64,000 bases of DNA from a virus. The DNA lies in IMG/VR virus record IMGVR_UViG_3300017917_000733, positions 57,145 through 121,144 of that record; one strand, given 5' to 3'. A model generated the notes under the pieces. The model searched no databases, was not told the DNA's origin, and worked only from the letters and a program-made list of their open reading frames with translations. Numbering within the stretch: the stretch's first letter is position 1; every line of letters begins with the position of its first letter. Shown here piece by piece: positions 1,846 through 16,996 of this stretch. The translations under genes and the position numbers were made by a program.

Positions 1846-2913
1846 TTACTTCCTATCACCGAATAGTATATAATCTTCTTGTTTGTAACCTTCCATGATT
1901 TCAGATCCTGAGCCAGAGTCTGGCGCACTATTTTTGTTATTAAGACTACCGCGAATAGGAACAATAGCCCACGTGCAGTAATCTTTAAAGTGTGGTAGAT
2001 TTTTTAATTCTTCTTCTAAGCTAAGTGTTTCTTCAACATTGTGTGGAGCCATCATAAATTTAACTTCTAAATGCCCAACACCTACATTTTTATGTTCAGC
2101 CTTTTCTTTTGCCACAGCTTCAACGACCTTAACGAACTTTGCCCTGTCATAAAACTCATAGTGTACTGATAGATTTAAATCACCATAGTGAATAATTTCT
2201 TGGTAGTAGTCAGGTTTGCGACTACCGTTGCTGTGTAAGCTAACGTGATGTCCGCATGCATTCAAATAACGTAACCAATCTAAGAAATCTTTGTTAACAG
2301 TTGGTTCGCCACCTGAAATAATGAAATTAACACTCTCACCCTTCGTAAACTTGCTTTCAATCAAATGTGTAGCTCTCATTAATTCTTCTAATGACTTATG
2401 TGGGTCAGTGTTATTATGTATCCAGGGCCAGCAATAGCTACAATCGTAGTTACAACGACGACCTATTTCCCAATAGATTTGCTTCTGCGTACTAGCGTGA
2501 GTTCTTTCCATACTGACGAAATCAGTTAGTTCAGTGTCAAGTAACTCAGGTTGTGCTGGTAAATTTTGACCTTTACGTAATGTAGGTATAAATTCTATCT
2601 TGCTTGCTTTAGGTATAAACAAGTCAGCACCGCAACTACACACGTTCTTAGTACAGTCTATCCAGTCATCGGGAACAGAAAAATCATCCCAAACACTGCC
2701 CAACTTACCACCAACCCTGCAGCTTGCTGTCCAAACTCCACCATCCATATCAATAAACAAACTATCAACACCTGCGCCGCACTTCCAACCTGTTAAGTAA
2801 TTTAATCTTGCCCCTACTAATTCATCAGTAGACCAATCTCTCCAATTACCATTTTGGTTATATGTTCTGATAGGCTTACCAGGTGTAAATTCGTAATTTG
2901 TTCTGTCTGTCAT
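1846..2913 (-). CDS. Radical SAM protein with N-terminal five-Cys module
   Basis: This is a 355-aa radical SAM enzyme. The 4Fe-4S motif CNYDCSYC is at Cys154/158/161, followed by ISGGEP (~200), the usual SAM-binding strand. Before the core, residues ~43-100 form a Cys-rich block with Cys45, 65, 87, 92 and 94 and the strings VGGK and DDFS. The same block with the same spacing sits at the C-terminus of the radical SAM protein at 27297-28256. It probably binds an auxiliary iron-sulphur cluster or zinc. The start ATG overlaps the stop of the upstream radical SAM gene by 4 nt (ATGA), so the two are translationally coupled. The target (peptide, sugar or nucleotide) is unknown. Confidence 0.9.
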   Translation of the reverse strand: MTDRTNYEFTPGKPIRTYNQNGNWRDWSTDELVGARLNYLTGWKCGAGVDSLFIDMDGGVWTASCRVGGKLGSVWDDFSVPDDWIDCTKNVCSCGADLFIPKASKIEFIPTLRKGQNLPAQPELLDTELTDFVSMERTHASTQKQIYWEIGRRCNYDCSYCWPWIHNNTDPHKSLEELMRATHLIESKFTKGESVNFIISGGEPTVNKDFLDWLRYLNACGHHVSLHSNGSRKPDYYQEIIHYGDLNLSVHYEFYDRAKFVKVVEAVAKEKAEHKNVGVGHLEVKFMMAPHNVEETLSLEEELKNLPHFKDYCTWAIVPIRGSLNNKNSAPDSGSGSEIMEGYKQEDYILFGDRK

Positions 2914-4265
2914 TTAATCTCTCCGCACTGTATGTAGAACTCTTTGAGTTCGGGGAATGTTTCTGTAAAATTTAGTCCGCGTAATTCATCGAAATCTTTG
3001 AACCAAGCATGAAATTGTTGTCTCAAAATACTTTGATCGGAGTTGTTATTCTTAATACTGTCTCTTAGATTTATTAAGAAATCAGTATAAGCACCCCATC
3101 TACCATATCGGTCACTGAAGTCAGGCATAGATGATTGAACAGATTGTATCCATTCAATTGCATCTGATAAGTTATCAGCAAAATTTGGTGTCAAAACAAA
3201 AGGTGTGTGACTATTAGGCCACGTTACTATGTTTTGCTTCAACATCGCAGGTTTACCTGTATCCTGACTTACTTTATATACCCATTGTAAAAACTTCTTA
3301 TATCTTGGGATGCTAAGTGCTGTAATGCTAGGTAAAAATCCTAACGTAACTCTGTCATTGTCTTTTGTCATGTTGAATAACTTATAGACATTACTTTCAA
3401 ATCGTTTCCAATCTAACCCGTTACGAATGTATTCAGCCTGTTCTTCTGTGCTTTCCATACTTATTAGAATTTCTAGTTTGAACTTTTCATTCAACTTAGG
3501 TAGATAATTCATAAGTTTATTGAAATAGCTTTCAGGAGTATTCAAGTTAGTGACTATCCATATAGTAGTGTTGTCGTTTTCAACATCTTTGTAAACATTT
3601 AACAACTTATCAATGAATGGATAAAAGTCGGGTGTAATCAACGGCTCGCCGCCGATAATACCTATTCTATCTAAACTATGTTTTGCTTCGGTATCAACCC
3701 ATCGCCAGAACAAATCAATAAACTTTTGATTAGGAGATCCGTTGACTTCTTCATAAATCTGATATGAAATTTTACCATTCTTAACGCTCTCACTGGCCCA
3801 TTGACTACTATAAACGTGATTGCAATACATGCACTTTAAGTCGCATGTATTTCCTAAACTCACTTCTAGCATGAAAGGCTTGTGACTTCTTAGAAACTTT
3901 GAGTCAAGGCTAACTTGTTCAGAAATAACATTAAGGTCGTCTGTTTGAAATTCTTCAAACATGTTTCTATGATAAGCAAAATCAATAAACCCCTGAGGAC
4001 TATTGCCTCGTAAGCTGACCGCGCCTTGATCTTCAATTTGCCAACATTGATTACAATCACTATGACGCTCTCCCTTTACCATTTCAAATCTGCGATTTAT
4101 TTGATAATCAGTATTTAGGAATAAGTTAATATCATAAGTGTTTAAATCCTTCTCAGTTACTGTCTGAAAGGGAGTTTTACAGCATGTTCGTATCTCATTC
4201 CTAGTTAAACTGATGTTTGGATAACCCCAGCGCAAATGGCATAGGCTTTTTTCGTTTGAGGGCAT
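2910..4265 (-). CDS. Radical SAM protein (twitch-type)
   Basis: This is a 451-aa radical SAM enzyme with cluster motif CDLKCMYC (Cys141/145/148) and IIGGEPL as the second motif. The N-terminal ~90 residues carry additional cysteines (Cys9, Cys28-Cys29, and CNQC at 71-74) that could hold an auxiliary cluster, as in twitch/SPASM-containing enzymes. It is the first gene of the three-gene minus-strand radical SAM operon and is divergent from the carbamoyltransferase operon. The shared intergenic region is ~40 bp to the small gene at 4305. Similar proteins are common in marine and freshwater phages, but their substrates are not established. Confidence 0.88.
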   Translation of the reverse strand: MPSNEKSLCHLRWGYPNISLTRNEIRTCCKTPFQTVTEKDLNTYDINLFLNTDYQINRRFEMVKGERHSDCNQCWQIEDQGAVSLRGNSPQGFIDFAYHRNMFEEFQTDDLNVISEQVSLDSKFLRSHKPFMLEVSLGNTCDLKCMYCNHVYSSQWASESVKNGKISYQIYEEVNGSPNQKFIDLFWRWVDTEAKHSLDRIGIIGGEPLITPDFYPFIDKLLNVYKDVENDNTTIWIVTNLNTPESYFNKLMNYLPKLNEKFKLEILISMESTEEQAEYIRNGLDWKRFESNVYKLFNMTKDNDRVTLGFLPSITALSIPRYKKFLQWVYKVSQDTGKPAMLKQNIVTWPNSHTPFVLTPNFADNLSDAIEWIQSVQSSMPDFSDRYGRWGAYTDFLINLRDSIKNNNSDQSILRQQFHAWFKDFDELRGLNFTETFPELKEFYIQCGEIK

Positions 4266-4275
4266 AATGGATTTT

Positions 4276-4283
4276 TATAAATA
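4276..4283 (+). promoter_or_regulatory. T4-type late promoter
   Basis: Exact TATAAATA box 22 nt before the ATG at 4305. In T4-like phages this box is read by the gp55 late sigma factor with host RNA polymerase. Confidence 0.65.
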
Positions 4284-4304
4284 ACTATTTAGTGAGATTG
4301 GTTT

Positions 4305-4403
4305 ATGAAATTTTTAAAAAACTGGATATTGAGTATCATCCGTGAGTATAGGTACAGAAAAAAATTAAAACAACTTAAAAAACGAGACCCTTTCATATAT
4401 TAA
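4305..4403 (+). CDS. Conserved phage mini-protein (32 aa)
   Basis: A 32-codon gene from ATG 4305 to TAA 4403, abutting the next ATG at 4404. The N-terminus is hydrophobic (MKFLKNWILSII), followed by a very basic helix (EYRYRKKLKQLKKRD) and an aromatic end (PFIY). Very similar basic mini-proteins ending in DPFIY recur in T4-like phages as far as I recall, with no known function. A TATAAATA late promoter lies just upstream. The role could be membrane-peripheral or nucleic-acid binding; neither can be shown here. Confidence 0.7.
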   Translation: MKFLKNWILSIIREYRYRKKLKQLKKRDPFIY

Positions 4404-5879
4404 ATGAATTACTTAGGCATATCATCCGGCTTCCATGATGCATCGGCTACCTTAATTGATTTCGAAGGTAATATCTTATTTGCTGGTCATAGTGAACGAT
4501 ACAGTAAAAATAAGCATGACAAATACTTAGATATTGACCTATTGAGAGATGTAACTAAATATCAAACGGATGCTTTGGAAATCCATTATTACGAAAGACC
4601 TTGGCTAAAGTCGTTAAGAGAAATACGAGCAGGCCAACCAATTTCACATCTAACAGCTAAAAGTGCTATAGGACAACAGTTCGTGTCATTTTTAGATAAT
4701 CCAAAAATTCATACATATAATCATCATTTAAGTCATGCTGCTGGCGGATTTCAAACTAGTCCTTTCGAAGATGCAACTGTCGTTGTTATAGACGCAATAG
4801 GTGAGTTTGATACTATAACAATATGGGACGCTAGATACGATAATAATGGATTTGCAAAGTACAAAAAACTATACAGCAAAAAGTATCCAAACAGTATTGG
4901 TTTATTTTACTCAGCAATGACTCAACGAGTAGGTCTTAGACCTTTAGACGAAGAATACATTCTTATGGGAATGGCCGCATACGGTGAGCCTGTGCATCTA
5001 CATGATATGATGGCACTTTTCAATAATGTATCAGATATAAATTTTAAAGAAAATTTACACATAGGTGTTCCTGAAGATTTTTTAAATAATGCGAATCCTA
5101 TGGATATCGCTAATAGCGCACAGCATTTGGTAGAATGGATGATTAAGCAAGTTGTAAGTAAAGCTAGGTATTTAGGGTCAAGCAAAAATTTAGTATATAG
5201 CGGTGGCGTTGCACTAAACTGTTTAGCTAACAGACTATTAGGAGATTATTTTGAAAACATTTGGATCATGCCTAATCCAGGTGATGCAGGAAGTAGTCTC
5301 GGAGCGGCTGCTCTTGGTTATGGCAGAAAACTTAATTGGATTAATGCTTTTCTTGGGCATGACATTGCCGGTACTTATCCCACTAACAATATACTTGACC
5401 ATCTACTTACCGATCGTATTGTTGGTGTGGCTAGTGGTAGGGCAGAATTTGGACCAAGAGCCTTAGGAAATAGAAGTCTGCTTGCAGACCCAAGAGGAAA
5501 CGAAGTAAAGGATCTAGTAAATGAAATCAAACGCAGACAAAAATTTCGACCATTTGCGCCAGTCATTCTGGAAGAGTATGTTGATGATTATTTTGATATG
5601 CCTGCTGGGTTCAGTAATAGTAGGTATATGCAAGTCATCGCTCCTTGCAGGCATCCTGACTTATTTCCTGCTATCGTTCATTATGATGGTACCAGTCGTG
5701 TCCAAACAGTGTCAAAAGATGGAACAGGCATTAGAGAACTCCTCGAAAAATGGTACGTACTAACAGGCTGTCCTATGCTATTGAATACGTCATTGAACAT
5801 TCGAGGCGAACCCATGGTCAACGATAGAAATGATGCAGCCCGTTTTGAGAATCTGTATGGAGTCAAAGTTTTATCATAA
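4404..5879 (+). CDS. Carbamoyltransferase (NodU/CmcH family)
   Basis: This 491-aa protein transfers a carbamoyl group from carbamoyl phosphate to a hydroxyl group. The N-terminal ASKHA-like fold starts NYLGISSGFHDASAT. The His-rich motif HHLSHAAGGF is at ~107 and the C-terminal YrdC-like signature EFGPRALGNRS at ~348; both are hallmarks of the family. The length is slightly below the usual ~550-600 aa. It heads a plus-strand run with the repeat protein and glutamine amidotransferase, divergent from three radical SAM genes. Phage members of this family have been linked to carbamoylation of hydroxymethylated cytosine in DNA, but others decorate sugars, so the acceptor here is uncertain. Confidence 0.93.
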   Translation: MNYLGISSGFHDASATLIDFEGNILFAGHSERYSKNKHDKYLDIDLLRDVTKYQTDALEIHYYERPWLKSLREIRAGQPISHLTAKSAIGQQFVSFLDNPKIHTYNHHLSHAAGGFQTSPFEDATVVVIDAIGEFDTITIWDARYDNNGFAKYKKLYSKKYPNSIGLFYSAMTQRVGLRPLDEEYILMGMAAYGEPVHLHDMMALFNNVSDINFKENLHIGVPEDFLNNANPMDIANSAQHLVEWMIKQVVSKARYLGSSKNLVYSGGVALNCLANRLLGDYFENIWIMPNPGDAGSSLGAAALGYGRKLNWINAFLGHDIAGTYPTNNILDHLLTDRIVGVASGRAEFGPRALGNRSLLADPRGNEVKDLVNEIKRRQKFRPFAPVILEEYVDDYFDMPAGFSNSRYMQVIAPCRHPDLFPAIVHYDGTSRVQTVSKDGTGIRELLEKWYVLTGCPMLLNTSLNIRGEPMVNDRNDAARFENLYGVKVLS

Positions 5880-5887
5880 GTAATTAA

Positions 5888-8626
5888 ATGCTAAGAGATG
5901 TATTTTATTACGGAAAAAAGCCAAACGCACACCCTAGAGAAAAGTTCGCAGTAAACCTAGCTGACGCTAGACAACAATGCACAACAGAACACTTTTGGAT
6001 AATTAATGAATACTGTGATTATCGTGGGTTCGATTGGGATTTTGATTTTGAATTTTTACCCGACGAAGATGTTTGGGCAGAAAACCATAACAACGTATGG
6101 CCTAGTCAACATCAAAAAGATAGTGGCACGTGGTTATGCTCTAAAGAACACAGCGATATTATAATATATCGTGCTGACGTAGATCCTGTAAAAAGAAGAA
6201 ATGAAATAAACGAACACTGGGTTCTTTTGAAAAATGTAGATACAGAAAAATTTGATTTTAGCTGGCATCCTGATCCAACCGAACCTCCCTATATCTATGT
6301 ATTTGGAAATCAATGGTATGATGTAAGTTTAGAACCCACACTAGAATATCATGTTTCGGGTGCAACTGATAAGAAATACATGACAGATATAATAGCGCAT
6401 ACAAAACCTGATATGGACAATTGGGTTACTACTTATCAAGTGGAAGATTTTGACTATAGCTGGCGCCCTCACCCACACAATCCTCCTATGATATATCAGT
6501 TCGGAACATTACTGGATGATATACACTTAAAGGATGGTCCTGTATATAACGCTCCGGGAAATGATGGTACAATCGTCTACCTTGATAATAAACTTGCTAC
6601 AAAATCTAAAGTTTCATATCCTAAGTATTATATTAACAATACACTAGATGAGTTAATACAAGACCATCCTAACGAAATATTTTGGGCCTTGCGTAAAAAT
6701 ATTAACTACGATAATTTTGATTTTAGTTGGACACCGACCAAAGAAAACGTTTTTCATATAAACGTATTCGGATCTCCTGATAGTGAAACTACGCAAACTT
6801 ATTTTGTTAATTCGGAAATGATAAGTCGCGGATTCAAAAGTTTCAATTTTATAGAAAATAAAAGATTAGATGACGAATACCTAGCGACATTATTCAAACC
6901 AATGGATATGTTCTTTGTGGATAGAAGCAATAAAGAATCGTCAGAAAGATTTGAAAAGTTAAAACAACGGTTTCCAAGTATCCAAAAGACACGTTATCTA
7001 CATACATGGGTTGATACTATTAATCGCTGTTTGAATAAATGTACAACTGAATTATGTTGGATACTAAACAGCGAATTAGATTATACTGACTTTGATTTTG
7101 AATATTATCCTAATCCATGGCAAATGAAAATGGTTCATGTATTCGGAACTCAATGGAGTCATTGGGGAACAACGTTTGTTGTCAATAAAGAAACATTCCC
7201 CAATGATACAAAATACATTAAAATAGTCGAGCATTTATCTAATATTAATTTTGTCAAAAAATCAAAGGCTCGTGCTACCAGTTGTTTATATGATATCTAT
7301 TTTATCGACCATGGTAACGATGAGTCTCTGGTACTTTTTGAAGAATTGAAACAAAATACGCCAAACGTTTACAATATCAAATACGATACTGATTATCTAC
7401 AAACATTTAAAAATCTATTAGAAGAAATTCCTATTAGAAAAGACCATTATATTTGGGTGTGCAGTTCTATATGTAAGTATGATAAGTTTGATTTTACTTA
7501 TATCTGTGATCCATTCTCACTAGAACAATTACACGTTTTTCCTAGCGATAAACAAAAGTTTGGAGATACATTCTTTGTTAATGTTAATAAATTGAGAATG
7601 TTAATAGATGACTTGAATAAATTGGATGACTTAGAAAAAATCAACTTTAATAATAGTTTACGAACCAATAGATTGCCTTGTCCTACATTTATAAATGATA
7701 GTGATACACATACTGATTTTGCAAAGTTTGAACACAATTTCCCTTATGCTGTATATCTGACTGAGGATAACAAAACAATGATGGTCAAAGATGATGAACC
7801 TATATCATTGTGGTCAAGTGATAGCAAAAATATTATCGTATCAAGTGAAGGTGCAAGTAGAGTTCTTATACCAAAAGAAGCAAAAGAATATGTTAAGAAA
7901 GAGTTGTACGACTATCCATACATTATAACAGCTAGCCGAGTTCGCCAAAGCAGACCAATGGACATTGTTTTTCTAAGCAACGGTGAAAAGGGCGCAGATG
8001 AAAACTTTGAACATTTACAACGAGTTGCAAGGGGCGTGGCTAACAAAATAATAAGAGTTGATGGTGTCAATGGTCGCGTAGCAGCATATCATGCAGCAGC
8101 CGAAGCAAGCACCACACCTTGGTTATTTACAGTGTTTGCTAAGTTGAAAGTCAATGAAAAGTTCAATTGGTCTTGGCAACCTGATAGATTACAGATGCCT
8201 AAACATTATATCTTTAATGCAACTAATCCAGTCAATGGCTTAGAGTATGGTCACCAAGCTATGATTGCATACAATAAGAAAATGACGTTAGCTAACATAG
8301 GTAAAGGACTTGACTTTACATTGGACGACGAACACGAAGTTGTAAATCTTAACTCGGGTATAGCATTGTTCAACACTGATGAATGGTCAACTTGGCGTAC
8401 TAGTTTCCGTGAAGTAATTAAACTTAGAAACGCAACAGATGACGAATCTAAAGAAAGATTAAATGTTTGGCTAACTGTGGGCAATGGTGATTTTGCTCAG
8501 TATAGTTTAGATGGTGCAAGACATGCAGTAGAATATTATGAAGAAGTCAACGGTGACATGGATAAACTAAAACTAAGCTATGATTGGCCTTGGCTACGTG
8601 CTTACTTTGATTCCAAATATAAATAA
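5888..8626 (+). CDS. Seven-repeat degenerate glycosyltransferase-like protein (912 aa)
   Basis: This long protein has at least seven diverged copies of one unit. Each unit has a hydrophobic strand (such as ELCWILNSELDY), an F-D/N-F/W-x-[WY]-x-P core (KFDFSWHPDP, DFDYSWRPHP, NFDFSWTP, DFDFEYYPNP, KFDFTYICDP, KFNWSWQPD) and a VFG-type strand (YIYVFGNQW, HVFGTQW). Fuller units add an Rossmann-like lead-in (MFFVDRS...RFEKLKQRFP). The C-terminal unit (DIVFLSNG...VNGRVAAYHAAAEASTTPWLF) resembles a GT-A nucleotide-sugar fold without its metal-binding DxD. It lies between a carbamoyltransferase and a glutamine amidotransferase. I infer a binding or scaffold role in glycan or DNA modification; no catalytic motif is visible. 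Confidence 0.8.
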   Translation: MLRDVFYYGKKPNAHPREKFAVNLADARQQCTTEHFWIINEYCDYRGFDWDFDFEFLPDEDVWAENHNNVWPSQHQKDSGTWLCSKEHSDIIIYRADVDPVKRRNEINEHWVLLKNVDTEKFDFSWHPDPTEPPYIYVFGNQWYDVSLEPTLEYHVSGATDKKYMTDIIAHTKPDMDNWVTTYQVEDFDYSWRPHPHNPPMIYQFGTLLDDIHLKDGPVYNAPGNDGTIVYLDNKLATKSKVSYPKYYINNTLDELIQDHPNEIFWALRKNINYDNFDFSWTPTKENVFHINVFGSPDSETTQTYFVNSEMISRGFKSFNFIENKRLDDEYLATLFKPMDMFFVDRSNKESSERFEKLKQRFPSIQKTRYLHTWVDTINRCLNKCTTELCWILNSELDYTDFDFEYYPNPWQMKMVHVFGTQWSHWGTTFVVNKETFPNDTKYIKIVEHLSNINFVKKSKARATSCLYDIYFIDHGNDESLVLFEELKQNTPNVYNIKYDTDYLQTFKNLLEEIPIRKDHYIWVCSSICKYDKFDFTYICDPFSLEQLHVFPSDKQKFGDTFFVNVNKLRMLIDDLNKLDDLEKINFNNSLRTNRLPCPTFINDSDTHTDFAKFEHNFPYAVYLTEDNKTMMVKDDEPISLWSSDSKNIIVSSEGASRVLIPKEAKEYVKKELYDYPYIITASRVRQSRPMDIVFLSNGEKGADENFEHLQRVARGVANKIIRVDGVNGRVAAYHAAAEASTTPWLFTVFAKLKVNEKFNWSWQPDRLQMPKHYIFNATNPVNGLEYGHQAMIAYNKKMTLANIGKGLDFTLDDEHEVVNLNSGIALFNTDEWSTWRTSFREVIKLRNATDDESKERLNVWLTVGNGDFAQYSLDGARHAVEYYEEVNGDMDKLKLSYDWPWLRAYFDSKYK

Positions 8627-8629
8627 AAC

Positions 8630-9349
8630 ATGAAACCAGTACTTATATTAGAACATCAAGCTCCTGAAAACGCAGCATATCTATTAACATGGTTAAAGAA
8701 CCGTGATATTCCTTATGAGATATTCAATGCCGACGTGCAAAAAGAATTTCCTCAAAGCATAGAACCATATTCAGCACTGGCTGTTATGGGCGGTGGCATG
8801 AGTGCAAACGATCCACTATTAACAAACAGACAAGCAGAGATATTGATATTGCAAGCTATGCACTATGATATTCCTGTCATTGGACATTGCCTCGGCGGGC
8901 AGTTAATGAGTAAAGCATTAGGTGGTAAGATAGGACTAAGCCCTAAACCTGAGATAGGATGGCAACCAATATCTTATATAGATAATGAACTAACTAAACA
9001 ATGGTTTGGTTCTGATCCCACTGATACAGTAATACATTGGCATTACGATACATTCAGCATACCAACAGGTGCTACATTATTAGCAAGTTCAGAAAGTTGT
9101 CCTAATCAAGCGTTTGCAATCGGTAAACATTTAGCTATGCAATTTCATATAGAAATAGATGAAAACAAAGTAAATCGTTGGGTATCAGATGACGATGGTA
9201 AATGGCAACAAGCTAGACAAGATTACGATTCGGTTCAAAACAGAGATGAAATGTTAAATGATATACCAAAATATTTGACAAAACATCAACAAACCGCTGA
9301 TAATATATACACTAACTGGCTCAAAACTACAGTTTGGGCTGATAAATAA
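8630..9349 (+). CDS. Class I glutamine amidotransferase
   Basis: This 239-aa GATase1 domain hydrolyses glutamine to supply ammonia. The nucleophile elbow GHCLGGQ has Cys87, and the catalytic His/Glu pair is in QFHIEID (His173, Glu175). Similar stand-alone proteins resemble the glutaminase half of GMP synthase. No synthetase domain is fused, so the ammonia acceptor must be another protein, possibly in the same operon (the carbamoyltransferase or the radical SAM proteins). The start lies 3 nt after the preceding stop, indicating co-translation. Confidence 0.92.
   Translation: MKPVLILEHQAPENAAYLLTWLKNRDIPYEIFNADVQKEFPQSIEPYSALAVMGGGMSANDPLLTNRQAEILILQAMHYDIPVIGHCLGGQLMSKALGGKIGLSPKPEIGWQPISYIDNELTKQWFGSDPTDTVIHWHYDTFSIPTGATLLASSESCPNQAFAIGKHLAMQFHIEIDENKVNRWVSDDDGKWQQARQDYDSVQNRDEMLNDIPKYLTKHQQTADNIYTNWLKTTVWADK
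9341..9348 (+). promoter_or_regulatory. Late promoter-like box GATAAATA
   Basis: GATAAATA overlaps the stop of the amidotransferase gene and lies ~100 bp before the tmRNA acceptor piece. It could drive late transcription of the small membrane gene and the tmRNA. It also encodes Asp-Lys-stop, so chance is possible. Confidence 0.35.
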
Positions 9350-9353
9350 GGTT

Positions 9354-9449
9354 ATGAGTTATATAGCTTGGATCATCGGTGGTTTGATTGTCGCTCTTGC
9401 CATATATTGGTTAATGGATTGGCAATCACAGCACGAAGATGGTGAATGA
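9354..9449 (+). CDS. Small membrane protein (31 aa)
   Basis: A short frame from ATG 9354 to TGA 9447-9449 with one predicted transmembrane helix (YIAWIIGGLIVALAIYWL) and an acidic tail (DWQSQHEDGE). It starts 4 nt after the amidotransferase stop and ends directly before the tmRNA. No recognisable Shine-Dalgarno sequence apart from the upstream AAGG. Single-helix mini-proteins of this type are common in phage operons; function unknown. Confidence 0.5.
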   Translation: MSYIAWIIGGLIVALAIYWLMDWQSQHEDGE

Positions 9450-9515
9450 TTATTGTGGTATGAAGTAAAGAGAAAAGTGTTCTGGACGGCGGGGCAGTAC
9501 CGCCCAGGTCCACCA

Positions 9516-9600
9516 AAAGAAAATTGACACGGTGTACAACGTGCATCACGGCGTGAGCATATGGTCAGGACATAGAGCCTGAATTCAGTTTTCTTTTGAT
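9516..9600 (+). other. tmRNA intervening (excised) segment
   Basis: This segment lies between the acceptor CCA and the coding-piece 5' end. Its ends are complementary: AAAAGAAAATTG directly after the CCA region pairs with CAGTTTTCTTTT just before the coding piece (12 bp, one G-U). This extends the acceptor stem into a long hairpin. That layout is expected for processing by host RNases into two pieces. Confidence 0.85.
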
Positions 9601-9687
9601 GGGCCTGACATAGTTTCGACAGGGCAAAGAGTAACAGAGTGGACCACACGGTAGATGACGACCGTAAATCGCATTAAAAACGTAAAC

Positions 9688-9720
9688 GCAAACGACGAAC
9701 AGTTCGCATTGGCAGCTTGA
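9688..9720 (+). other. tmRNA tag reading frame ANDEQFALAA
   Basis: Resume codon GCA at 9688-9690, ten sense codons and TGA at 9718-9720. The hydrophobic ALAA end is the ClpXP-type degron. The ANDE..ALAA pattern matches gamma- and betaproteobacterial tags rather than the alphaproteobacterial ones ending VAA. Confidence 0.95.
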
Positions 9721-9763
9721 TTAAAAGCAGCCTGGGGTAAGACAGACCTCGCAACAGAACCTC

Positions 9764-9788
9764 AAAAAGGGCATTAATGCCCTTTTTT
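9764..9788 (+). terminator. Rho-independent terminator of the tmRNA
   Basis: AAAAAGGGCAT, a 2-nt loop, then ATGCCCTTTTTT: a strong stem with a run of six T directly after the tmRNA coding piece. Confidence 0.9.
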
Positions 9789-9898
9789 CATGGCTACCAT
9801 GTGATTGTAATCACAATCTACCCGTAACTTTTATTTCCCTCATTAATCTAATTACTATATACTTGTTAAGTTATTTTTAATCACAGAAAGGCACACAA
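9789..9898 (+). promoter_or_regulatory. AT-rich leader of the DUF4214-like gene
   Basis: This gene-free stretch sits between the tmRNA terminator and the next gene. It contains a short inverted repeat (GTGATTGTAATCAC) and an AT-rich segment with ACTATATACTTG that may serve as a -10 region. A clear RBS (AGAAAGG at 9885-9891) is present. No promoter can be assigned firmly. Confidence 0.35.
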
Positions 9899-10801
9899 AT
9901 GACAACTACAATTACAATTAAAGACAAAGCAATTAACGCTACATACCAAGATAAAACTGGTACAACATCAGGCACTGGTACAGGCGCTAAGTTTGATGTT
10001 ACTAAAACAGACGGTGTTTATACCGTTGCATTGGATTCTGCACTAGCAAGCGCAGGCTCTGGTTACGCAGCAGGTGACACTATCACTATTCTTGGTTCTC
10101 AACTAGGTGGTGTTAACACTACTAACGATTTGATTCTTACTGTTGCTACAGTTGGAGCAGGTGGTAAAATCGCTACATTCGGCTCTGTCGGAACAGGTCG
10201 CGTAGGCGATGGCACAGTTGATGTTCAAGTTGATGTTACTGGTACAAGCGGCGTTGATACATATGTTGTTCCTGGCAACAGCACTGACTTCACAGTTACT
10301 AAGAATGAATCTGACATTACACTAGACAGCGGTCTTTCTACAAACGTTCACTTCAAACTAGCTGACCATGAGCGTGTTGTGTTCGATGACACAGCAATTG
10401 CATTTGATGCAGATGGTGTTGCAGGTGATGTATATGCATTACTAGCAGCCGCACTAGGTGTTAGCGATGTTACCGCTGAGTTCCAAGGTATTGGTATCGC
10501 TCTTGCAGACAACGGTTGGACAAACAAACAACTTGCAGAAGCATTGTTGAACACTGATGTTTACAAAGAAGATGCAGGTGGTGTAAGTACAGAAACTTTC
10601 ATCAAGCATGTCTACAAGAATGTCATGGGAACTGACGCTACATTGGCAGAAGTTGTTGACTTGACCAGTTGGATGACCACAAATCACCTAAGCCAAGCTG
10701 ATGTTTTGGTTATCGCTAGTCAATTAGAAGATTTCCAAACTACTATTGATTTAGTTGGTTTGGCAACTACTGGTATTGAGTATACCCCTTACGTAGCATA
10801 A
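9899..10801 (+). CDS. DUF4214-like surface protein
   Basis: This 300-aa protein is rich in Gly, Thr, Asp and Val and contains almost no Cys. The first ~130 residues are beta-rich and low in charge (repeated TGTTSGTGTGAKFDV-type strands). Residues ~135-185 contain LADHERVVFDDTAIAFD, a string typical of the linker before DUF4214 domains in exported and RTX-like proteins. The C-terminus (FIKHVYKNVMGTDATLAEVV to SQADVLVIASQLED) matches the DUF4214 helical pattern. There is no signal peptide, so it is either a virion decoration protein or secreted by type I export. It is flanked by the tmRNA terminator and its own terminator, a moron-like arrangement. Confidence 0.65.
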   Translation: MTTTITIKDKAINATYQDKTGTTSGTGTGAKFDVTKTDGVYTVALDSALASAGSGYAAGDTITILGSQLGGVNTTNDLILTVATVGAGGKIATFGSVGTGRVGDGTVDVQVDVTGTSGVDTYVVPGNSTDFTVTKNESDITLDSGLSTNVHFKLADHERVVFDDTAIAFDADGVAGDVYALLAAALGVSDVTAEFQGIGIALADNGWTNKQLAEALLNTDVYKEDAGGVSTETFIKHVYKNVMGTDATLAEVVDLTSWMTTNHLSQADVLVIASQLEDFQTTIDLVGLATTGIEYTPYVA

Positions 10802-10849
10802 CCTGCAAATAATTTATTGGGTAGAAAATATCACAGTAAATATTATTCT

Positions 10850-10876
10850 AGCCTGAGAAATCAGGCTTGTTTTTTA
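10850..10876 (+). terminator. Rho-independent terminator
   Basis: Stem AGCCTGA / TCAGGCT with a GAAA tetraloop, followed by GTTTTTTT; between the DUF4214-like gene and the outer-membrane protein gene. Confidence 0.9.
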
Positions 10877-10888
10877 AAAGGAAATTAT

Positions 10889-11440
10889 ATGAAAAAAATC
10901 TTAGCAATCTTAGCTCTTGCCACTTTTGGTTCTGCGTTCGCCGCAGATTATGTTTCTGTTGACGTTGATAGCGTCAAGGGTCTAGAAGGTGCAAGGAACA
11001 GCATCGCACAATATGTTCGTGCTGGCAAAGGATTCGGTGATTACCAACTTGGTCTACAGTCTCGTACTGCTGTCTTCAGTGGTGGCGGAATGTTGAACAG
11101 TTTGGAAGCAACTGTTGCTAACAACAAAGTTAGCAAATTTGGTGTTACTCCATTCGTTGGTGTTGGATACGACAATGGCTTTAACGGTGTAAAGAATGGC
11201 AACTACACTTACGGTCTGGTAGGTGCTACAACTGGTATGAAAGTAGGACTTGGTTATGCACTATTAGGTGTTAAGACTCGTGTAGGTAGCAACGAAGCAG
11301 TTCAAACTAAACAAACCGTTGCGTTCGGTACATACAGTATCCCAGTTGCAAATAAAGTTTCCCTAAACTTGAATGCAAGTAAGTCTTATCAGACTATCAA
11401 AGAAGATGCAGTAGGCTTAGGTTTAACATTCAGCTTCTAA
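10889..11440 (+). CDS. Outer-membrane beta-barrel protein with signal peptide
   Basis: The start at ATG 10889 is chosen because AAAGGAAA lies 6-10 nt upstream and the product begins with a textbook signal peptide (MKKILAILALATFGSAFA, cleavage before ADYVS). An earlier in-frame start at 10817 would run through the terminator. The mature ~165 residues alternate polar and hydrophobic residues (FGVTPFVGVGYDNGF, KVGLGYALLGVKT) and end in LGLTFSF, the C-terminal aromatic signal for BAM insertion. It is probably an 8-strand barrel. A phage gene for a host outer-membrane protein suggests superinfection exclusion or a moron-like change to the cell surface; the exact role is unknown. Confidence 0.8.
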   Translation: MKKILAILALATFGSAFAADYVSVDVDSVKGLEGARNSIAQYVRAGKGFGDYQLGLQSRTAVFSGGGMLNSLEATVANNKVSKFGVTPFVGVGYDNGFNGVKNGNYTYGLVGATTGMKVGLGYALLGVKTRVGSNEAVQTKQTVAFGTYSIPVANKVSLNLNASKSYQTIKEDAVGLGLTFSF

Positions 11441-11455
11441 TCATTCAAAGGCATC

Positions 11456-11478
11456 AAAGGCTCTTCGGAGCCTTTTTT
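11456..11478 (+). terminator. Rho-independent terminator
   Basis: AAAGGCTC, TTCG tetraloop, GAGCCTTT plus T-run; a very stable hairpin right after the beta-barrel gene. Confidence 0.93.
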
Positions 11479-11510
11479 GTTGGGGTACAGCCCTGTCAAT
11501 TAAATATCAA

Positions 11511-12191
11511 ATGCATCCAGTTATATTTACTTCTTATAATCACGCAGTAGACCCTAGACTTGCAGAGTATCAAAGTCTTGTGATTGAGAAACTTAGAAAT
11601 GGAATTCCATTCCTACCGTTAAAGTACGGCTTCACTGAAAATGAAATGCTACACGGTGATATATTAAACAAAGCGATACATAAAGTATTTTATGAAATGG
11701 GTGCGGATTGTATTCTTATAGTAGATGTAGACGCGATACCACTAAGTACTGAATCATTAGAAGAAACATTACACGTAGCCTATTCAGGACACGTAGTTGG
11801 AAACATTCAACGGTCAAATCATTTTGAAAATGGTCAGCATGTCTATGTAGGCTCATCTTATATATGTTTTACTAGGTACATATTTGAAGCTGCTGGTAGT
11901 CCGACTATGTGTTACAACAACAAATATGATACATGTGAATTATTAACTGTGAATGCAGAACGTTTTAACATACCTGTAACTAAATTTATGCCAACTCATG
12001 TTGATTCGCCGTGGGTAGACTCTAACGGAAATTTAGGATACTGGAACTTAGCTGACGGTATGCCTAAATATGGAATAGGGACTACATTTTCCTATGAAAA
12101 TAAACCCATGTCTTATCATTTATTTTCATCAAGGCATCATATTTACAATCAATATTTCTTTGATAAGTGCCAAAGTATTTTGTCCAAATAA
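11511..12191 (+). CDS. GT-A glycosyltransferase-like protein
   Basis: This 226-aa protein starts with HPVIFTSYNHAVDPRL and has CILIVDVDAIPLS at ~65-77. The DVDA is a good candidate for the DxD metal/nucleotide-sugar site of GT-A enzymes, preceded by a hydrophobic strand as expected. Later motifs (YVGSSYICFTRYIF, MPTHVDSPWVDSNG, PMSYHLFSSRHH) resemble acceptor-side regions of small phage glycosyltransferases. It stands alone between a terminator and a tRNA gene. It may glycosylate DNA, virion proteins or host lipopolysaccharide. Confidence 0.7.
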   Translation: MHPVIFTSYNHAVDPRLAEYQSLVIEKLRNGIPFLPLKYGFTENEMLHGDILNKAIHKVFYEMGADCILIVDVDAIPLSTESLEETLHVAYSGHVVGNIQRSNHFENGQHVYVGSSYICFTRYIFEAAGSPTMCYNNKYDTCELLTVNAERFNIPVTKFMPTHVDSPWVDSNGNLGYWNLADGMPKYGIGTTFSYENKPMSYHLFSSRHHIYNQYFFDKCQSILSK

Positions 12192-12229
12192 TTCGAACCA
12201 CCCATTGATTTAATATATAATAGAAACAT

Positions 12230-12302
12230 GCGCTGTTCTCAATGGTTGAGTAAGAGCCTCTAAAACTCTGAATAACGGGTTCGACTCCCGTACAGCGCAC
12301 CA
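12230..12302 (+). tRNA. tRNA with anticodon CUA (amber-reading), unusual D-arm
   Basis: The 73-nt gene includes an encoded CCA. Acceptor stem GCGCTGT/ACAGCGC is a perfect 7 bp with discriminator A. The T-arm ACGGG-TTCGACT-CCCGT is canonical. The anticodon arm is AGAGC-CTCTAAA-ACTCT: four pairs plus a C31-A39 mismatch, U33 in place, and positions 34-36 read CTA, which decodes UAG. The D-arm is about three nucleotides short (CTC/GAG with an AATGGTT loop). A TCT (Arg) reading would require losing U33 and most of the anticodon stem, so CUA is preferred. The short variable loop makes it class I. Confidence 0.8.
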
Positions 12303-12304
12303 AT

Positions 12305-12312
12305 TATAAATA
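12305..12312 (+). promoter_or_regulatory. T4-type late promoter
   Basis: Exact TATAAATA directly after the tRNA, 5 nt before ATG 12318 and ~160 nt before the ATG at 12474. It probably serves mainly the downstream gene. Confidence 0.55.
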
Positions 12313-12317
12313 ATATT

Positions 12318-12467
12318 ATGAAACTACCGTTTATTGGACTCATGGGAGTCAAAAATGATTTAACACTTGTTACCCCTAGTGGTCGTGAGTTGTTTAGGGT
12401 GCCCCAATGGGCAGCGTGGAGAATCCAACACGTACAACACTGGATCGCACAAAAAACTTGGAGATAA
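12318..12467 (+). CDS. Small hypothetical protein (49 aa)
   Basis: An open frame from ATG 12318 to TAA 12465-12467. The product is Trp-rich (five Trp) with a basic, Gln-rich C-terminal half (PQWAAWRIQHVQHWIAQ). It lies between the tRNA and the amber-containing gene, and its stop is 6 nt before the next ATG. There is no good RBS, so expression is plausible but unproven. Confidence 0.45.
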   Translation: MKLPFIGLMGVKNDLTLVTPSGRELFRVPQWAAWRIQHVQHWIAQKTWR

Positions 12468-12473
12468 AACAAA

Positions 12474-13046
12474 ATGGCATAGATTGAATTTGCATGTAAA
12501 GACGTAGTGTTTCACTTTAACAAGAAACACCTAGAAGACCAAACTATACCCATGTGGGTCTTAAAATTTCATGGGGAAACATATTATGTGAATCATGTGG
12601 AATGCAATGTTCCATGGTCTACTAAAGAGACACCCGACAATTCACATACAAAAGGCAGCATCAAAGTCAAAGAGGTCTTATTAAAGATTGATGACGATAA
12701 CAATGCTACATTAACCAATCTCACTATCTTTGATAAAATTCGTTTGCGTAATCAAAAATTAGGTATTACACGAATCATATTCAAACCTCACAGTGAAATG
12801 CACAAGGCAATATTAAAGAACGAGTTTAAACATAGTCCACTCAAATATGTGAATGCACCTTGTTCAACTTCATATTTGGTTTGTGATTTATTAGATAAGG
12901 CAGAGTTTACATTTGCATCATTGAAGTATGAAGGATTTAGACAATTAATGCCCAACGAATCATACTATCAGCAATATGATGATGTTAAAGGTGAACATTT
13001 AAAAGTGGATTACAGTCATCCAGACACACCCTACGAATATAGTTAA
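12474..13046 (+). CDS. Conserved phage protein with in-frame TAG at codon 3
   Basis: ATG 12474 has a good RBS (GGAG at 12460-12463, 10 nt upstream). The frame reads Met-Ala-TAG-Ile-Glu-Phe-Ala-Cys-Lys-Asp-Val-Val and then stays open to TAA 13046, ~190 codons. The only alternative start, GTG 12507, has no RBS and would drop IEFACKDV, which looks like the proper start of the protein. The product is soluble and basic, with NHVECNVPWSTKETPD and LLKIDDDNNATLTN blocks typical of a conserved T4-like phage protein of unknown function. The amber tRNA lies 170 nt upstream, so readthrough is the simplest explanation. Confidence 0.75.
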
Positions 13047-13078
13047 CCAAAATATTTTATTTCGCAAAAGCCCTGTGC

Positions 13079-13162
13079 TATACTAAATAATGTTGAAGCA
13101 TGGGGCTTCACCTAACACTCTTTAAACATAATGGTCTTAGAGTGTGACCAGAAAAGGAAAAT
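13079..13162 (+). promoter_or_regulatory. Extended -10 promoter and structured leader
   Basis: TGCTATACT (13076-13084) forms an extended -10 box. Two hairpins follow in the leader: TGAAGC/GCTTCA (13094-13110) and ACACTCT/AGAGTGT (13115-13145). An RBS AAAAGGAAA lies just before ATG 13163. Confidence 0.5.
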
Positions 13163-13984
13163 ATGATGTACAATCAAAAGCTGGTGGCCAGCCTAAAAGC
13201 CAATGGTAAAATCCTTCGTGAATTCAAGGATACTGTCTACTGCCCATTCGGAGCAGAATACTCAATCTTACTCAAGAACCTAAACACAGTCCGTGCAGTT
13301 GTCAATGTTTATATTGACGGCGAGAACATTGTTCCAGGTGGTCTTGTTCTTAACGCAGGTCAAGAGGTTGACCTTGAGCGTAGCATCAAGAACGGCAATC
13401 TAACTGAAGGTAACAAACTAAAGTTCATTGAACGAACCGGAGCAGTTGAACAACATCGTGGTATCAAACTTGAAGATGGTATTGTTCGTATTGAATACCA
13501 GTTTGAAATTGCTCGTCCAATTATCAACATCAGTGATAATATCTGGAAATCTACTCCTATTACAGGGGCGTATGATAATTACAAAACATACAATGTCAAT
13601 GGTATGATGCGTAGTGTAGATTACAGCGCCGGCGAGACTATGAAAGCTACCGCGGCAAGTGCTACTAATGCCACATTACAAGCCATGAATATCAGCGCAA
13701 CATCAGCACATGATGGTATGGCTACGATGGATTGGAATGATGCAGGTATTACTGTTCCGGGTAGTAAAAGTGAACAAAAGTTTCAAACAACATATTTAAA
13801 CGCATTGGATCCGCAGAAGTATTCTATTGTGTTGAAGATTCTCGGTGAGACTCCTGATAATGAACCTGTTCGCAAGCCCGTCACTACTAAGCATAAGCCT
13901 AAGTGTGTGACATGTGGCAAACAGAATAAAGCTACTGCTAAGTTCTGTACTGAATGCGGTACAGCCTTAGAAATTTTCGCTTAA
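13163..13984 (+). CDS. Phage protein with C-terminal zinc ribbon
   Basis: This 273-aa protein has a beta-rich N-terminal domain (residues ~5-115, e.g. TVYCPFGAEYSILLKNLNTV and VVNVYIDGENIVPGG). A low-complexity Ala/Thr/Met middle follows, then a zinc ribbon CVTCGKQNKATAKFCTECG (two CxxC knuckles) at ~246-264. The N-terminal pattern resembles jelly-roll-like virion accessory proteins. A structured leader and its own promoter suggest high expression. The last codons overlap the convergent permease gene by 4 nt. Function unknown. Confidence 0.75.
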   Translation: MMYNQKLVASLKANGKILREFKDTVYCPFGAEYSILLKNLNTVRAVVNVYIDGENIVPGGLVLNAGQEVDLERSIKNGNLTEGNKLKFIERTGAVEQHRGIKLEDGIVRIEYQFEIARPIINISDNIWKSTPITGAYDNYKTYNVNGMMRSVDYSAGETMKATAASATNATLQAMNISATSAHDGMATMDWNDAGITVPGSKSEQKFQTTYLNALDPQKYSIVLKILGETPDNEPVRKPVTTKHKPKCVTCGKQNKATAKFCTECGTALEIFA

Positions 13985-14952
13985 ATCATTTTCGATGCTA
14001 TGTTGGTATACAAAGGTATACCAACTAACACATTGAACGGGAATGTTATACCAAGGCTAAGACCAAAGTAGATACTAGGATTAGCCTCTGGTATAGCAAA
14101 CTTCACTACCGCGGGTACAGCAATATAACTAGCACTAGCAGCTAGTACCATTAATAGTGCCGTGTTACCCAAGCTAACTCCAAACAATATACATAGACCT
14201 AAAGCCAAGATACTGTGCATTATAGGTGCTACTATAGCGTATGCTAATAACGCAGGACTTTTGTCACGTAACTCAGGTATGCGTTTTGCAACTTGTAATC
14301 CCATGTCTAACAAGAAAAACGCTAGTAAGCCCTTGAACAAGTCACCAGTGAATGGCTTCATTACAGTAGCACCACTTTCACCCGTCAACATACCGATAGC
14401 TAAACTTGCTAACAGTAATATATGAGCACCGTCAGTAAACGATTCATGCAACACATGTTTTATACTGACTGAATTGTTAGCTCTTGTATATGCAGCTAAT
14501 GCTACTGCCATGATGATTGCAGGACTTTCCATTAACGCCATAACAGCAGACATGTACCCGCCAAACTCTATTCCGTTGTTTGACAAATATTGTGTCGCTG
14601 TAACAAACGTGACAGCACTTACACTTCCATAAGTAGCAGCTACTGCGGCACTATCGAATCCATTTAAGAATCGTTTCAATATCACATAACCCATCGCAGG
14701 AATAGTCAATGCTAGAAATAATCCTATTCCTATAACACTACCGATTTCGTCAGTGAACCCGCTTTTTGCTAATGCAAAGCCACCTTTAAGTCCTAATGCC
14801 ATTAACAAGTACAGACTTAAAAATTTTACAATTTGGTTTGGGATTTCTAAATTGCTACGTATAAGTCCAGCAAAAATGCCAAACACAAAGAATAATATTG
14901 CGGGGTCTAGTAAATTGTTCATGCAGATACTTATCGCAACTAATTTGCCCAT
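13981..14952 (-). CDS. SbtA-like sodium-dependent bicarbonate permease
   Basis: This 323-aa polytopic membrane protein of the Sbt_1/DUF897 family has about ten hydrophobic helices. Characteristic strings are NLLDPAILFFVFGIFAGLI, KFLSLYLLMALGLKGG near the N-terminus, and SYIAVPAVVKFAIPEANPS near the C-terminus. The annotated start is the first ATG; the family normally starts at MNNLLDPA (ATG at 14922), which is equally likely. It is the only minus-strand gene in this region, divergent from the AhpC cassette. It probably imports bicarbonate with sodium across the inner membrane. It is an unusual auxiliary metabolic gene for a phage. Confidence 0.88.
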   Translation of the reverse strand: MGKLVAISICMNNLLDPAILFFVFGIFAGLIRSNLEIPNQIVKFLSLYLLMALGLKGGFALAKSGFTDEIGSVIGIGLFLALTIPAMGYVILKRFLNGFDSAAVAATYGSVSAVTFVTATQYLSNNGIEFGGYMSAVMALMESPAIIMAVALAAYTRANNSVSIKHVLHESFTDGAHILLLASLAIGMLTGESGATVMKPFTGDLFKGLLAFFLLDMGLQVAKRIPELRDKSPALLAYAIVAPIMHSILALGLCILFGVSLGNTALLMVLAASASYIAVPAVVKFAIPEANPSIYFGLSLGITFPFNVLVGIPLYTNIASKMI

Positions 14953-15055
14953 AAAACTTTAAAACGCAATATAGTAGCATATAATCGACTCAGTAGACCA
15001 CTAAATAAAAGTATATAGTGCTCTACTGAAGTGCTCTATATCGAGAAAGAGGATA

Positions 15056-15427
15056 ATGTCAAACTTAGGTTGTTTTACTTGTTTAAACTGTGGAAAAGTT
15101 AACCCAATCAAGGGCCACTCCTATACAAACAAATACTGTAATAATAGTTGCCAGCAAGAACATCAAAGACGCCATCGTGCGTTTGAGAATGTTCAGAAAT
15201 GGAAAGAATCAAAAGAGCCGCAAGCCTGGGCTAAAATTCCCGACTGGATTAGAAAATATTTGGTTGATAACAGAGGTCACAAATGTGAATCATGTAATAA
15301 TGAAACACATAATGGGAAAGAGATTCCACTAGATGTAACTTATCGTGATGGTGATAGTTACAATACAAAGGAAGACAACTTAATGTTGATATGCCCCAAT
15401 TGTAGGGCACAAAGTAAAATTCATTAA
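15056..15427 (+). CDS. HNH endonuclease-like protein, active site degraded
   Basis: This 123-aa protein has an N-terminal zinc knuckle (CFTCLNCG...YCNNSCQ) and a C-terminal HNH-like region (HKCESCNN...DNLMLICPNC). In active HNH enzymes the central strand is LHHIDGD and the last CxxC is followed by H. Here the strand is LDVTYRDGD and the end is CPNCRA, so the catalytic His is missing. The zinc-binding cysteines remain. It may be a nuclease relic or a DNA-binding protein. RBS GAAAGAGG lies just upstream; AGTGCTCTA occurs twice in the leader (15018-15041). Confidence 0.75.
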   Translation: MSNLGCFTCLNCGKVNPIKGHSYTNKYCNNSCQQEHQRRHRAFENVQKWKESKEPQAWAKIPDWIRKYLVDNRGHKCESCNNETHNGKEIPLDVTYRDGDSYNTKEDNLMLICPNCRAQSKIH

Positions 15428-15446
15428 CACACAAGGAGAAACACTA

Positions 15447-15992
15447 ATGAAAACAATCGGCGATAAAATTACAAGTTTTGCAGTTACAGGCGTTAAGCCA
15501 GGTGCACTTACACCGGAAGGCGCGTTTGAAACTATTACTGACAAAAGTTTCGAAGGAAAATGGAAAGTTATTGTTTACTATCCTAAGGACTTCACTTTCG
15601 TATGTCCTACTGAGATTGTTGCTTATGACAAGCTCAATGGCGACTTTAGTGACCGTGATGCAGTTCTATTAATCGGTTCTACAGATAACGAATTCTGTAA
15701 GCTAGCATGGCGTAATGCACACGAAGACCTAAAGAAAACAAATTCTTGGTCATTCGCTGATGTTGCCCGTGACGAGAACAGTTTAGCACAACAATTAGGT
15801 ATCTTCTACGGTCCAGCAGGCGCCGCATTACGTGCTACATTCATTGTTGACCCTGATAACGTTATTCAGCACGTTACAGTTAACAACTTGGACGTTGGTC
15901 GTAATCCAGATGAAACATTGCGTATTCTTGACGCACTACAGACTGGCGAACTATGCCCATGCTCACGTCCTATCGGTGGTGAGACACTATAA
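15447..15992 (+). CDS. ahpC: AhpC-type 2-Cys peroxiredoxin
   Basis: This 181-aa thioredoxin-fold peroxidase reduces H2O2 and organic peroxides. The peroxidatic Cys53 lies in FTFVCPTE. The C-terminal ELCPCSRPIGG carries resolving Cys170/172, the arrangement of AhpC enzymes that are recycled by AhpD (mycobacterial type) rather than AhpF. An ahpD gene lies at 17656-18195 in the same cassette. The RBS CAAGGAGAAA is strong. The stop codon overlaps the next ATG. Confidence 0.95.
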   Translation: MKTIGDKITSFAVTGVKPGALTPEGAFETITDKSFEGKWKVIVYYPKDFTFVCPTEIVAYDKLNGDFSDRDAVLLIGSTDNEFCKLAWRNAHEDLKKTNSWSFADVARDENSLAQQLGIFYGPAGAALRATFIVDPDNVIQHVTVNNLDVGRNPDETLRILDALQTGELCPCSRPIGGETL

Positions 15993-16339
15993 TGGATTAT
16001 CACGCACATCTTTACTGGGAGAACGAGTCTCAACGATTTGAGGCTCTACATCTAAGACCACAGTTGCAAGACTTGGGTTGCAAGCTAGGTAGAATTTGGG
16101 ATGAACCTATTGGGCCGCACCCCATGGCAATGTATCAGGTAAATTACAATAGTGATAATAAAAAAGCTGTAGAAGACTTATTGTACAAAGCCAAACTACA
16201 TATTCTACTACACGAAGACACCGGTGACGATTTGCGTGACCATATTGAAAATACACGATGGATAGGCAGACCATTGACAGTAAACATCAAATGGTTAAAA
16301 GATAACATTAAGGAAGGAAAACAACATGAACTTTCGTGA
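15992..16339 (+). CDS. DOPA 4,5-dioxygenase-like protein
   Basis: This 115-aa protein belongs to the DOPA 4,5-dioxygenase-like family of small ferredoxin-fold proteins. Motifs are YHAHLYW at the start, GPHPMAMYQVNY (~47-58) and HEDTGDDLRDH (~74-84), giving the conserved His residues thought to bind iron. The start overlaps the ahpC stop (TAATG). The family opens catechol rings in fungi and plants; bacterial members have no settled substrate. It may handle an oxidised aromatic in this redox cassette. Confidence 0.85.
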   Translation: MDYHAHLYWENESQRFEALHLRPQLQDLGCKLGRIWDEPIGPHPMAMYQVNYNSDNKKAVEDLLYKAKLHILLHEDTGDDLRDHIENTRWIGRPLTVNIKWLKDNIKEGKQHELS

Positions 16340-16391
16340 TTTATTTGAATATCTAAAGAGAGAACATTGCCCCTCTTGTAAAGGAAAATAA
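16326..16391 (+). CDS. Mini-protein with CPSC knuckle (21 aa)
   Basis: ATG 16326 follows an excellent RBS (AAGGAAGGA). The 21-codon product ends EHCPSCKGK, half of a zinc knuckle. It overlaps the end of the dioxygenase-like gene, and its stop overlaps the next ATG (TAATG), so it may act in translational coupling. Function unknown. Confidence 0.5.
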   Translation: MNFRDLFEYLKREHCPSCKGK

Positions 16392-16996
16392 TGTTAGAAA
16401 CAATAAGTGAATTGTTTAATGAAGCCTACAAGCGTAATTGGATTACTGCAAGAGACGGTAATGCTAGTATTCGTTGGCATGACCGTGACCATATGTATAT
16501 CACTCCCAGTGGTATACGTAAGCAAACACTTCAACCAGAAATGTTTGTTAAGTGGGATATGGTAAACGAGTATAGAGCATTGCCTTATACTAATCTAAGC
16601 AGCGCCTTACGCCCATCAGGTGAACTACCACTTCATTATGAACTGCAAAAACAGATTGATACTGAAGTTCGTGTAGTATTACATATGCACCCTACTTACA
16701 CGGTTGCAGCTATGTATGCAGGCATCGAGTTAAGTGAACTTGTAAAAGAGTTTCCAGAACTAGGTCGTTATACAAAAGTAGGACAAAATGTTCCTGATGT
16801 TCCTCCGATAAGTGTAGAGTTAGCAAACGCAACTTATCCAAAACTTATTAATGAGTCTGGGCAAACAATTAATCATATTGTTGGTATCGACAGACATGGA
16901 GTAGTTGCGGTAGATACAAGTCCTTGGCGTGCATTTGAGCATATTGAACGTCTTGAACATATTTGTAAGATAGTTTTGTCTTCTAGGAGATTTTAA
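16391..16996 (+). CDS. Class II aldolase/adducin family protein
   Basis: This 201-aa zinc-dependent aldolase-fold enzyme has GNASIR (~23-28), the phosphate-binding loop, metal ligands in HMHPTYTVA (~98-106) and the third ligand in IDRHGVVAV (~173). Family members include fuculose-phosphate aldolase, ribulose-phosphate epimerase and methylthioribulose-phosphate dehydratase. Which reaction occurs cannot be told. It is coupled to neighbours by overlap upstream and a direct stop-start junction (TAAATG) with terC downstream. Confidence 0.88.
   Translation: MLETISELFNEAYKRNWITARDGNASIRWHDRDHMYITPSGIRKQTLQPEMFVKWDMVNEYRALPYTNLSSALRPSGELPLHYELQKQIDTEVRVVLHMHPTYTVAAMYAGIELSELVKEFPELGRYTKVGQNVPDVPPISVELANATYPKLINESGQTINHIVGIDRHGVVAVDTSPWRAFEHIERLEHICKIVLSSRRF

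Follow-up and report, generated by a model that had tools for sequence, protein, structure and literature searches.

tmRNA is the RNA that frees stuck ribosomes, and an ALAA tag end is a ClpXP-type degron. Two-piece tmRNAs of phages have been published for the OM43 phage Melnitz and its relatives, with 53 cases, mostly aquatic, in a set of 18,146 phage genomes (PMC9004378); counting every form, the tmRNA database holds 79 unique sequences from phages (PMC11915505). As a rule, phage tmRNAs are listed and then left. We found permuted genes, mostly without tmRNA annotation in the records, in cultured phages as well (L463-L470), namely Stenotrophomonas phages DLP6 and QDWS359, Xanthomonas phages Rb1 and X1, Alcaligenes phage QDWS595, and Synechococcus S-CAM1, S-CAM3 and BUCT-ZZ01; in the six whose elbow could be scored it is of the standard TTC/GG type, and these phage genes are not close by DNA to the gene described here. 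The rarity suggested in an earlier note on this DNA is thus unsupported, such genes being common in viral contigs and published for Melnitz-like phages. The phage two-piece tmRNA is already known as a kind, and what makes the present gene a variant is its mosaic composition.

Like the ssrA genes of Melnitz and other aquatic phages (PMC9004378), the gene in the 64,000-nucleotide stretch analysed here (the window) is a permuted two-piece ssrA borne by a T4-like phage, and neither type needs an integrase-bearing prophage. By description, the Melnitz ssrA is alphaproteobacterial and joined to a glutamine riboswitch (PMC9004378), whereas the window gene has a beta-like coding piece, with the elbow alone of alpha type, and the Rfam scan of the window gave no riboswitch. 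With the betaproteobacterial permuted tmRNA (RF01850) it shares the order of the pieces, the sequence and structure of the coding piece, the tag and the 3' hairpin, but its T-loop is GGCAGTA where that family has TTCGA, its D-loop has AG where that family has GG, its excised segment is longer and its closing stem is extended. With the alphaproteobacterial permuted tmRNA (RF01849) it shares the elbow, GGC[AG]GTA with AG, and the six-base lead of the D-loop, whereas its coding piece and tag are not of alpha type, alpha tags mostly starting with ANDN.

The gene and the phage that carries it

ARAGORN reports a single tmRNA in the window, of the permuted class (tmRNA*, 9423-9811) and with the tag ANDEQFALAA. 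The Rfam model tmRNA_permuted (RF04321) matches over its full length (model positions 1-213) at 9454-9720 with 136.6 bits against a gathering cut-off of 47 bits, and beta_tmRNA (RF01850), also full-length, matches at 9400-9790 with 124.1 bits against a cut-off of 84 bits, both with E values of 1e-26 or better. These calls confirm the permuted two-piece tmRNA that the earlier note had proposed in a phage. The complete gene occupies 9454-9764 on the plus strand of a large virus of bacteria, and the acceptor piece with its encoded CCA precedes the excised segment and the coding piece, as expected for a permuted gene (Table 1). The CCA end at 9515, the excised segment at 9516-9600 and the coding start at 9601 had been placed correctly beforehand. 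Pairing of GGGCCTG with CAGGTCC includes the G3-U70 wobble of alanine identity, and the tag frame has its resume codon, stop and hydrophobic end. The helix that closes the excised segment, put at 12 bp in the earlier note, is present and in folding reaches 14 bp by including the CA of the CCA; the folding energy is -27.0 kcal/mol, where shuffled sequences average -18.0 (z -3.2). As described, the T-stem is intact, but the loop is GGCAGTA and not the usual TTCRA. The strong terminator said to follow is visible by eye as a hairpin to which the 3' hairpin of beta_tmRNA aligns, although the terminator scan did not list it.

Table 1. Parts of the permuted tmRNA gene, in positions of the window
Feature	Position	Strand	Basis
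Acceptor piece (P2 5' strand, T-arm, 3' acceptor strand, CCA)	9454-9515	+	Sequence reading, Rfam
P2 helix 5' strand, TGTGGT	9454-9459	+	Pairs with ACCACA at 9643-9648
T-arm, intact stem GGCGG/CCGCC (9488-9492/9500-9504)	9488-9504	+	Sequence reading
T-loop GGCAGTA, alphaproteobacterial type	9493-9499	+	Sequence reading
3' acceptor strand CAGGTCC	9505-9511	+	Pairs with 9601-9607
A73	9512	+	Sequence reading
Encoded CCA end	9513-9515	+	Sequence reading
Excised segment, 85 nt, 14-bp closing stem	9516-9600	+	Folding
Coding piece (5' acceptor strand, D-loop, P2 3' strand, tag, 3' pseudoknot region)	9601-9764	+	beta_tmRNA match
5' acceptor strand GGGCCTG	9601-9607	+	Sequence reading
D-loop ACATAG, then TTTCGAC; A at the G18 position	9608-9620	+	Sequence reading
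TTTCGAC	9614-9620	+	Sequence reading
P2 helix 3' strand, ACCACA	9643-9648	+	Sequence reading
Tag ORF ANDEQFALAA (9688-9717), resume codon GCA at 9688, TGA at 9718-9720	9688-9720	+	ARAGORN, sequence reading
Putative intrinsic terminator hairpin AAAAAGGGCAT-TA-ATGCCCTTTTT	about 9765-9787	+	By eye; beta_tmRNA 3' hairpin aligned there

The record, 121 kb long, is a fragment that stops where the window ends. Phage genes neighbour the tmRNA, among them a terminase, a UvsX-like recombinase, RIIA and a helicase; these and a single-strand binding protein are of types known from genomes of the T4 superfamily. With a T4-type terminase, UvsX, RIIA and replication genes in one record, the label T4-like given to the phage holds at the level of the superfamily only, its best cultured terminase matches being about 50% identical and lying in jumbo phages, Sinorhizobium phage Phosso and Pseudomonas phage PA5oct among them. 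The virus is a T4-superfamily phage and probably a jumbo phage. Elsewhere in the window, positions 1846-18195 hold metabolic cargo (two radical SAM proteins, a carbamoyltransferase, a glutamine amidotransferase, AhpC-like and AhpD-like proteins, an SbtA-type bicarbonate transporter and a class II aldolase), and a cell-wall hydrolase (PF07486) at 52946-53476 has homologues near the tmRNA in L004, L073, L121, L370, L416 and L448. A 31-codon frame for the hydrophobic peptide MSYIAWIIGGLIVALAIYWLMDWQSQHEDGE (9354-9449, plus strand) ends just before the tmRNA; the next gene downstream of the tmRNA (9899-10801, start MTTTITIKDK, weak DUF4214) has the same place in L626.

By DNA, the window tmRNA had no match at 1e-5 among 50,697 phage records, and E values up to 10 brought weak partial matches only. 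Its sister gene in L003 is nearly all identical and differs by few letters from the window core, among them two compensatory pair changes in P2 (TGTGGT/ACCACA in the window, TGCTGT/ACAGCA in L003). Since P2 joins the two pieces and has been kept by these changes, both halves are under selection, as a single RNA. Among about 200 phage tmRNAs compared, the pairs of P2, the acceptor stem and the T-stem vary in step, and all 52 distinct stems keep acceptor pairs 1, 2, 3 (the G3-U70 wobble) and 7 unchanged. We also chose 15 related contigs by their terminase (82-86% identical), independently of any tmRNA. Seven of these members of the window's terminase clade carry a permuted tmRNA above the cut-off and one more does so weakly, the weak case (L629/L630) having a long open reading frame between the tmRNA pieces; two contigs of the clade are 264 and 525 kb long. 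The compensatory P2 and the recurrence of the same type of RNA in the clade bear out the earlier view that the gene is intact and looks functional.

A mosaic gene with a co-varying elbow

The elbow departs from the standard on both sides, with TAG in the D-loop where TGG is standard and GGCAGTA in the T-loop where TTCRA is standard. The family consensus of beta_tmRNA has UUCGAUU and UGG at these places; betaproteobacterial chromosomes are represented here by this Rfam consensus only, since a class sample around a Methylomonas genome held almost only one-piece tmRNAs. All alphaproteobacterial tmRNAs with a scorable elbow combine GGC[AG]GT with AG, so that the window elbow, which has the GGC[AG]GTA and D-loop AG of alpha_tmRNA (RF01849), is of alpha type. 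Scored alone, the acceptor piece has alpha_tmRNA as the best model of the clan at 23.8 bits, an assignment made up of a few bits and the elbow letters, and the coding piece has beta_tmRNA at 90.3 bits and is not of the RF01849 type. Judged by its letters, the gene is a phage mosaic whose elbow (A18 with T-loop GGCAGTA) is of alpha type and whose body is of beta type. Deviating T-loop letters had been noted earlier in Caulobacter and in a mitochondrial tmRNA (PMC1168896). We rejected the odd T-loop as a sign of a relic, the identical loop being standard in alphaproteobacteria.

We then asked how the two sides of the elbow go together in about 185 non-redundant viral genes. Contigs were picked either by their D-loop letters alone (TAG or TGG) or by their T-loop letters alone (GGCAGTA) and the free side was scored, a retrieval that favours, for one side, the letters used in the choice. 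A18 occurs with G55 (T-loops TGC or GGC) in 115 genes and G18 with U55 in 69 (63 contigs and six cultured phages); G18 with G55 was never seen, and A18 with U55 once, in L085. The letters before TTTCGAC or TTCGAC in the cultured phages (CCCAGG, CCAAGG and ACATGGC) count as GG, and the tmRNAs of the contigs found by terminase fit the pairing wherever the elbow is readable. The exception, L085, is mismatched in an acceptor pair too and looks recombinant. Elusimicrobia, Acidobacteria and candidate phyla likewise combine D-loop AG with T-loop TGC, in tmRNAs of the one-piece form (genome loci L134, L139, L150 and others). The pairing thus arose more than once.

L003, L622 and L629/L630 share a letter-identical backbone, ATTGCTGTATGAAGCAAAGAGAAAAGTGTTCTGGACG...CAGGTCCACCA, and carry T-arms of three types together with the D-loops ACATAG, ACATTGG and CATAG, respectively. 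Matched sets of T-arm and D-loop on one backbone are the trace that exchange as a unit between phages would leave. With parts exchanged among phages, neither the permuted form nor any single part names a donor, and the earlier proposal that the permuted form points to the donor lineage finds no support in a gene with an alpha elbow and a beta coding piece.

Excised segments and transcription

In relatives, 25 of 134 non-redundant excised segments contain an open reading frame that has a Shine-Dalgarno sequence before it and starts 9-20 nt after the CCA, against 1.45 expected (sd 1.2, maximum 6) in 300 dinucleotide shuffles; among segments of 130 nt or more the share is 16 of 23. Examples include L085 (about 480-1130), L305, L314, L320, L425 and L627. 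The frames of L305 and L314 are more alike as protein (0.75) than as DNA (0.69), with 8, 2 and 12 differences at the three codon positions. That of L320 matches Pfam PGDYG at 27.8, above the cut-off of 27, and that of L425 matches DUF2061 at 22.3, just under the cut-off of 23.1. Small hydrophobic peptides are frequent, and one frame is common to L058 and L292 despite their different elbows. No such frame was found in the window's own excised segment (9516-9600). Relatives thus appear, from these reading frames, to use the excised piece as coding space; a literature search of partial coverage returned no earlier report of coding excised segments.

Of 188 viral genes, 30 have the core of a T4-type late promoter, TATAAATA, at 45-68 nt upstream of the T-arm, where 0.006 per gene would be expected. 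GGC-class genes account for 23 of the 30, and in L353, L359, L416, L448, L628 and others the distance is 45-55 nt. TATAAATA is absent just upstream of the window gene and the promoter scan gave no sigma-70 match for it, so a transcription start further upstream is likely. Late expression of the window gene is plausible by analogy with these relatives.

Function and meaning for the phage

The anatomy of the gene, its intact pairing, the compensatory change between the pieces and the co-variation of the elbow are read from the letters themselves, and from them we infer processing, charging, rescue and timing. One precursor would span 9454 to the terminator, and nucleases would free the 85-nt stem-loop between the CCA (9515) and G1 (9601), so that two RNAs, acceptor and coding, would remain, joined by the acceptor helix and P2. 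Alanine charging would be expected through G3-U70. With host SmpB and EF-Tu, the RNA would load into ribosomes that have stalled at the ends of broken mRNAs and append the tag ANDEQFALAA. The likely use would be the recycling of ribosomes during infection, when many mRNAs are cut. No SmpB was found in the 121-kb record or in nine related records by a search that detected the protein in 10 of 14 control genomes, hence the expected reliance on the host's. We consider rescue with host SmpB the likeliest function and hold the reading as a whole, a phage-encoded, circularly permuted two-piece tmRNA of mosaic make-up that likely recycles ribosomes in infection with host SmpB, with considerable confidence.

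The RNA could instead serve mainly as an inhibitor or decoy that, by competition, draws SmpB and ribosomes away from the host tmRNA and so spares phage proteins the host's quality control. Mycobacterium phage DS6A has a tmRNA-like RNA without a tag that is reported to inhibit the host tmRNA upon expression in E. coli (PMC11915505). We regard this as improbable for the window gene, whose tag frame, resume codon, stop codon, G3-U70 pair and P2 helix are each intact and conserved, an ALAA tag being needless for a decoy. Slightly less probable still is tag-directed proteolysis, in which extra tmRNA made by the phage would tag host proteins for breakdown, so that their amino acids could be reused in the early phase of infection. 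It was proposed for Melnitz, where the gene stands behind an early promoter (PMC9004378), but tmRNA targets stalled ribosomes and not selected proteins, and many relatives of the window gene have T4-type late promoters instead. A captured host gene or a relic without present function is the least credible reading, for although tmRNA genes often serve as integration sites and fragments of them can occur in phages, this gene is complete, shows compensatory change and has the same RNA in its phage relatives, and the core AGTTTCGACAGGGC had matches in eight of 399 Pseudomonadota genomes, none of them a tmRNA. As no bacterial tmRNA with this core occurs in those 399 genomes, we rejected capture of the whole gene from a host.

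The sole tRNA gene of the 121-kb record (12230-12302, plus strand) has the anticodon CUA, of the amber suppressor type (Pyl according to ARAGORN). Of 82 greedy reading frames, just two end in TAG. The frame that starts at 12474 opens with ATG GCA TAG; a DNA search for the suppressor tRNA in 15 related contigs, run without a positive control, gave no match. Recoding of this stop codon by the phage is possible, and the CUA tRNA might increase the need for ribosome rescue.

Returning to rescue with host SmpB, it can now be tested why phages keep a rescue RNA of their own when, in the records searched, they have no SmpB to go with it. On balance we favour the view that the permuted tmRNA of aquatic phages is a modular platform, in which T-arm and D-loop move together as matched elbow cassettes and the excised segment in many phages carries a small protein gene with its ribosome-binding site right after the CCA; of this platform the window would represent the form with an alpha-type elbow and an empty segment. 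Three natural elbows on a near-identical RNA (L003, L622 and L629) make the exchange of the elbow contact as a unit testable.
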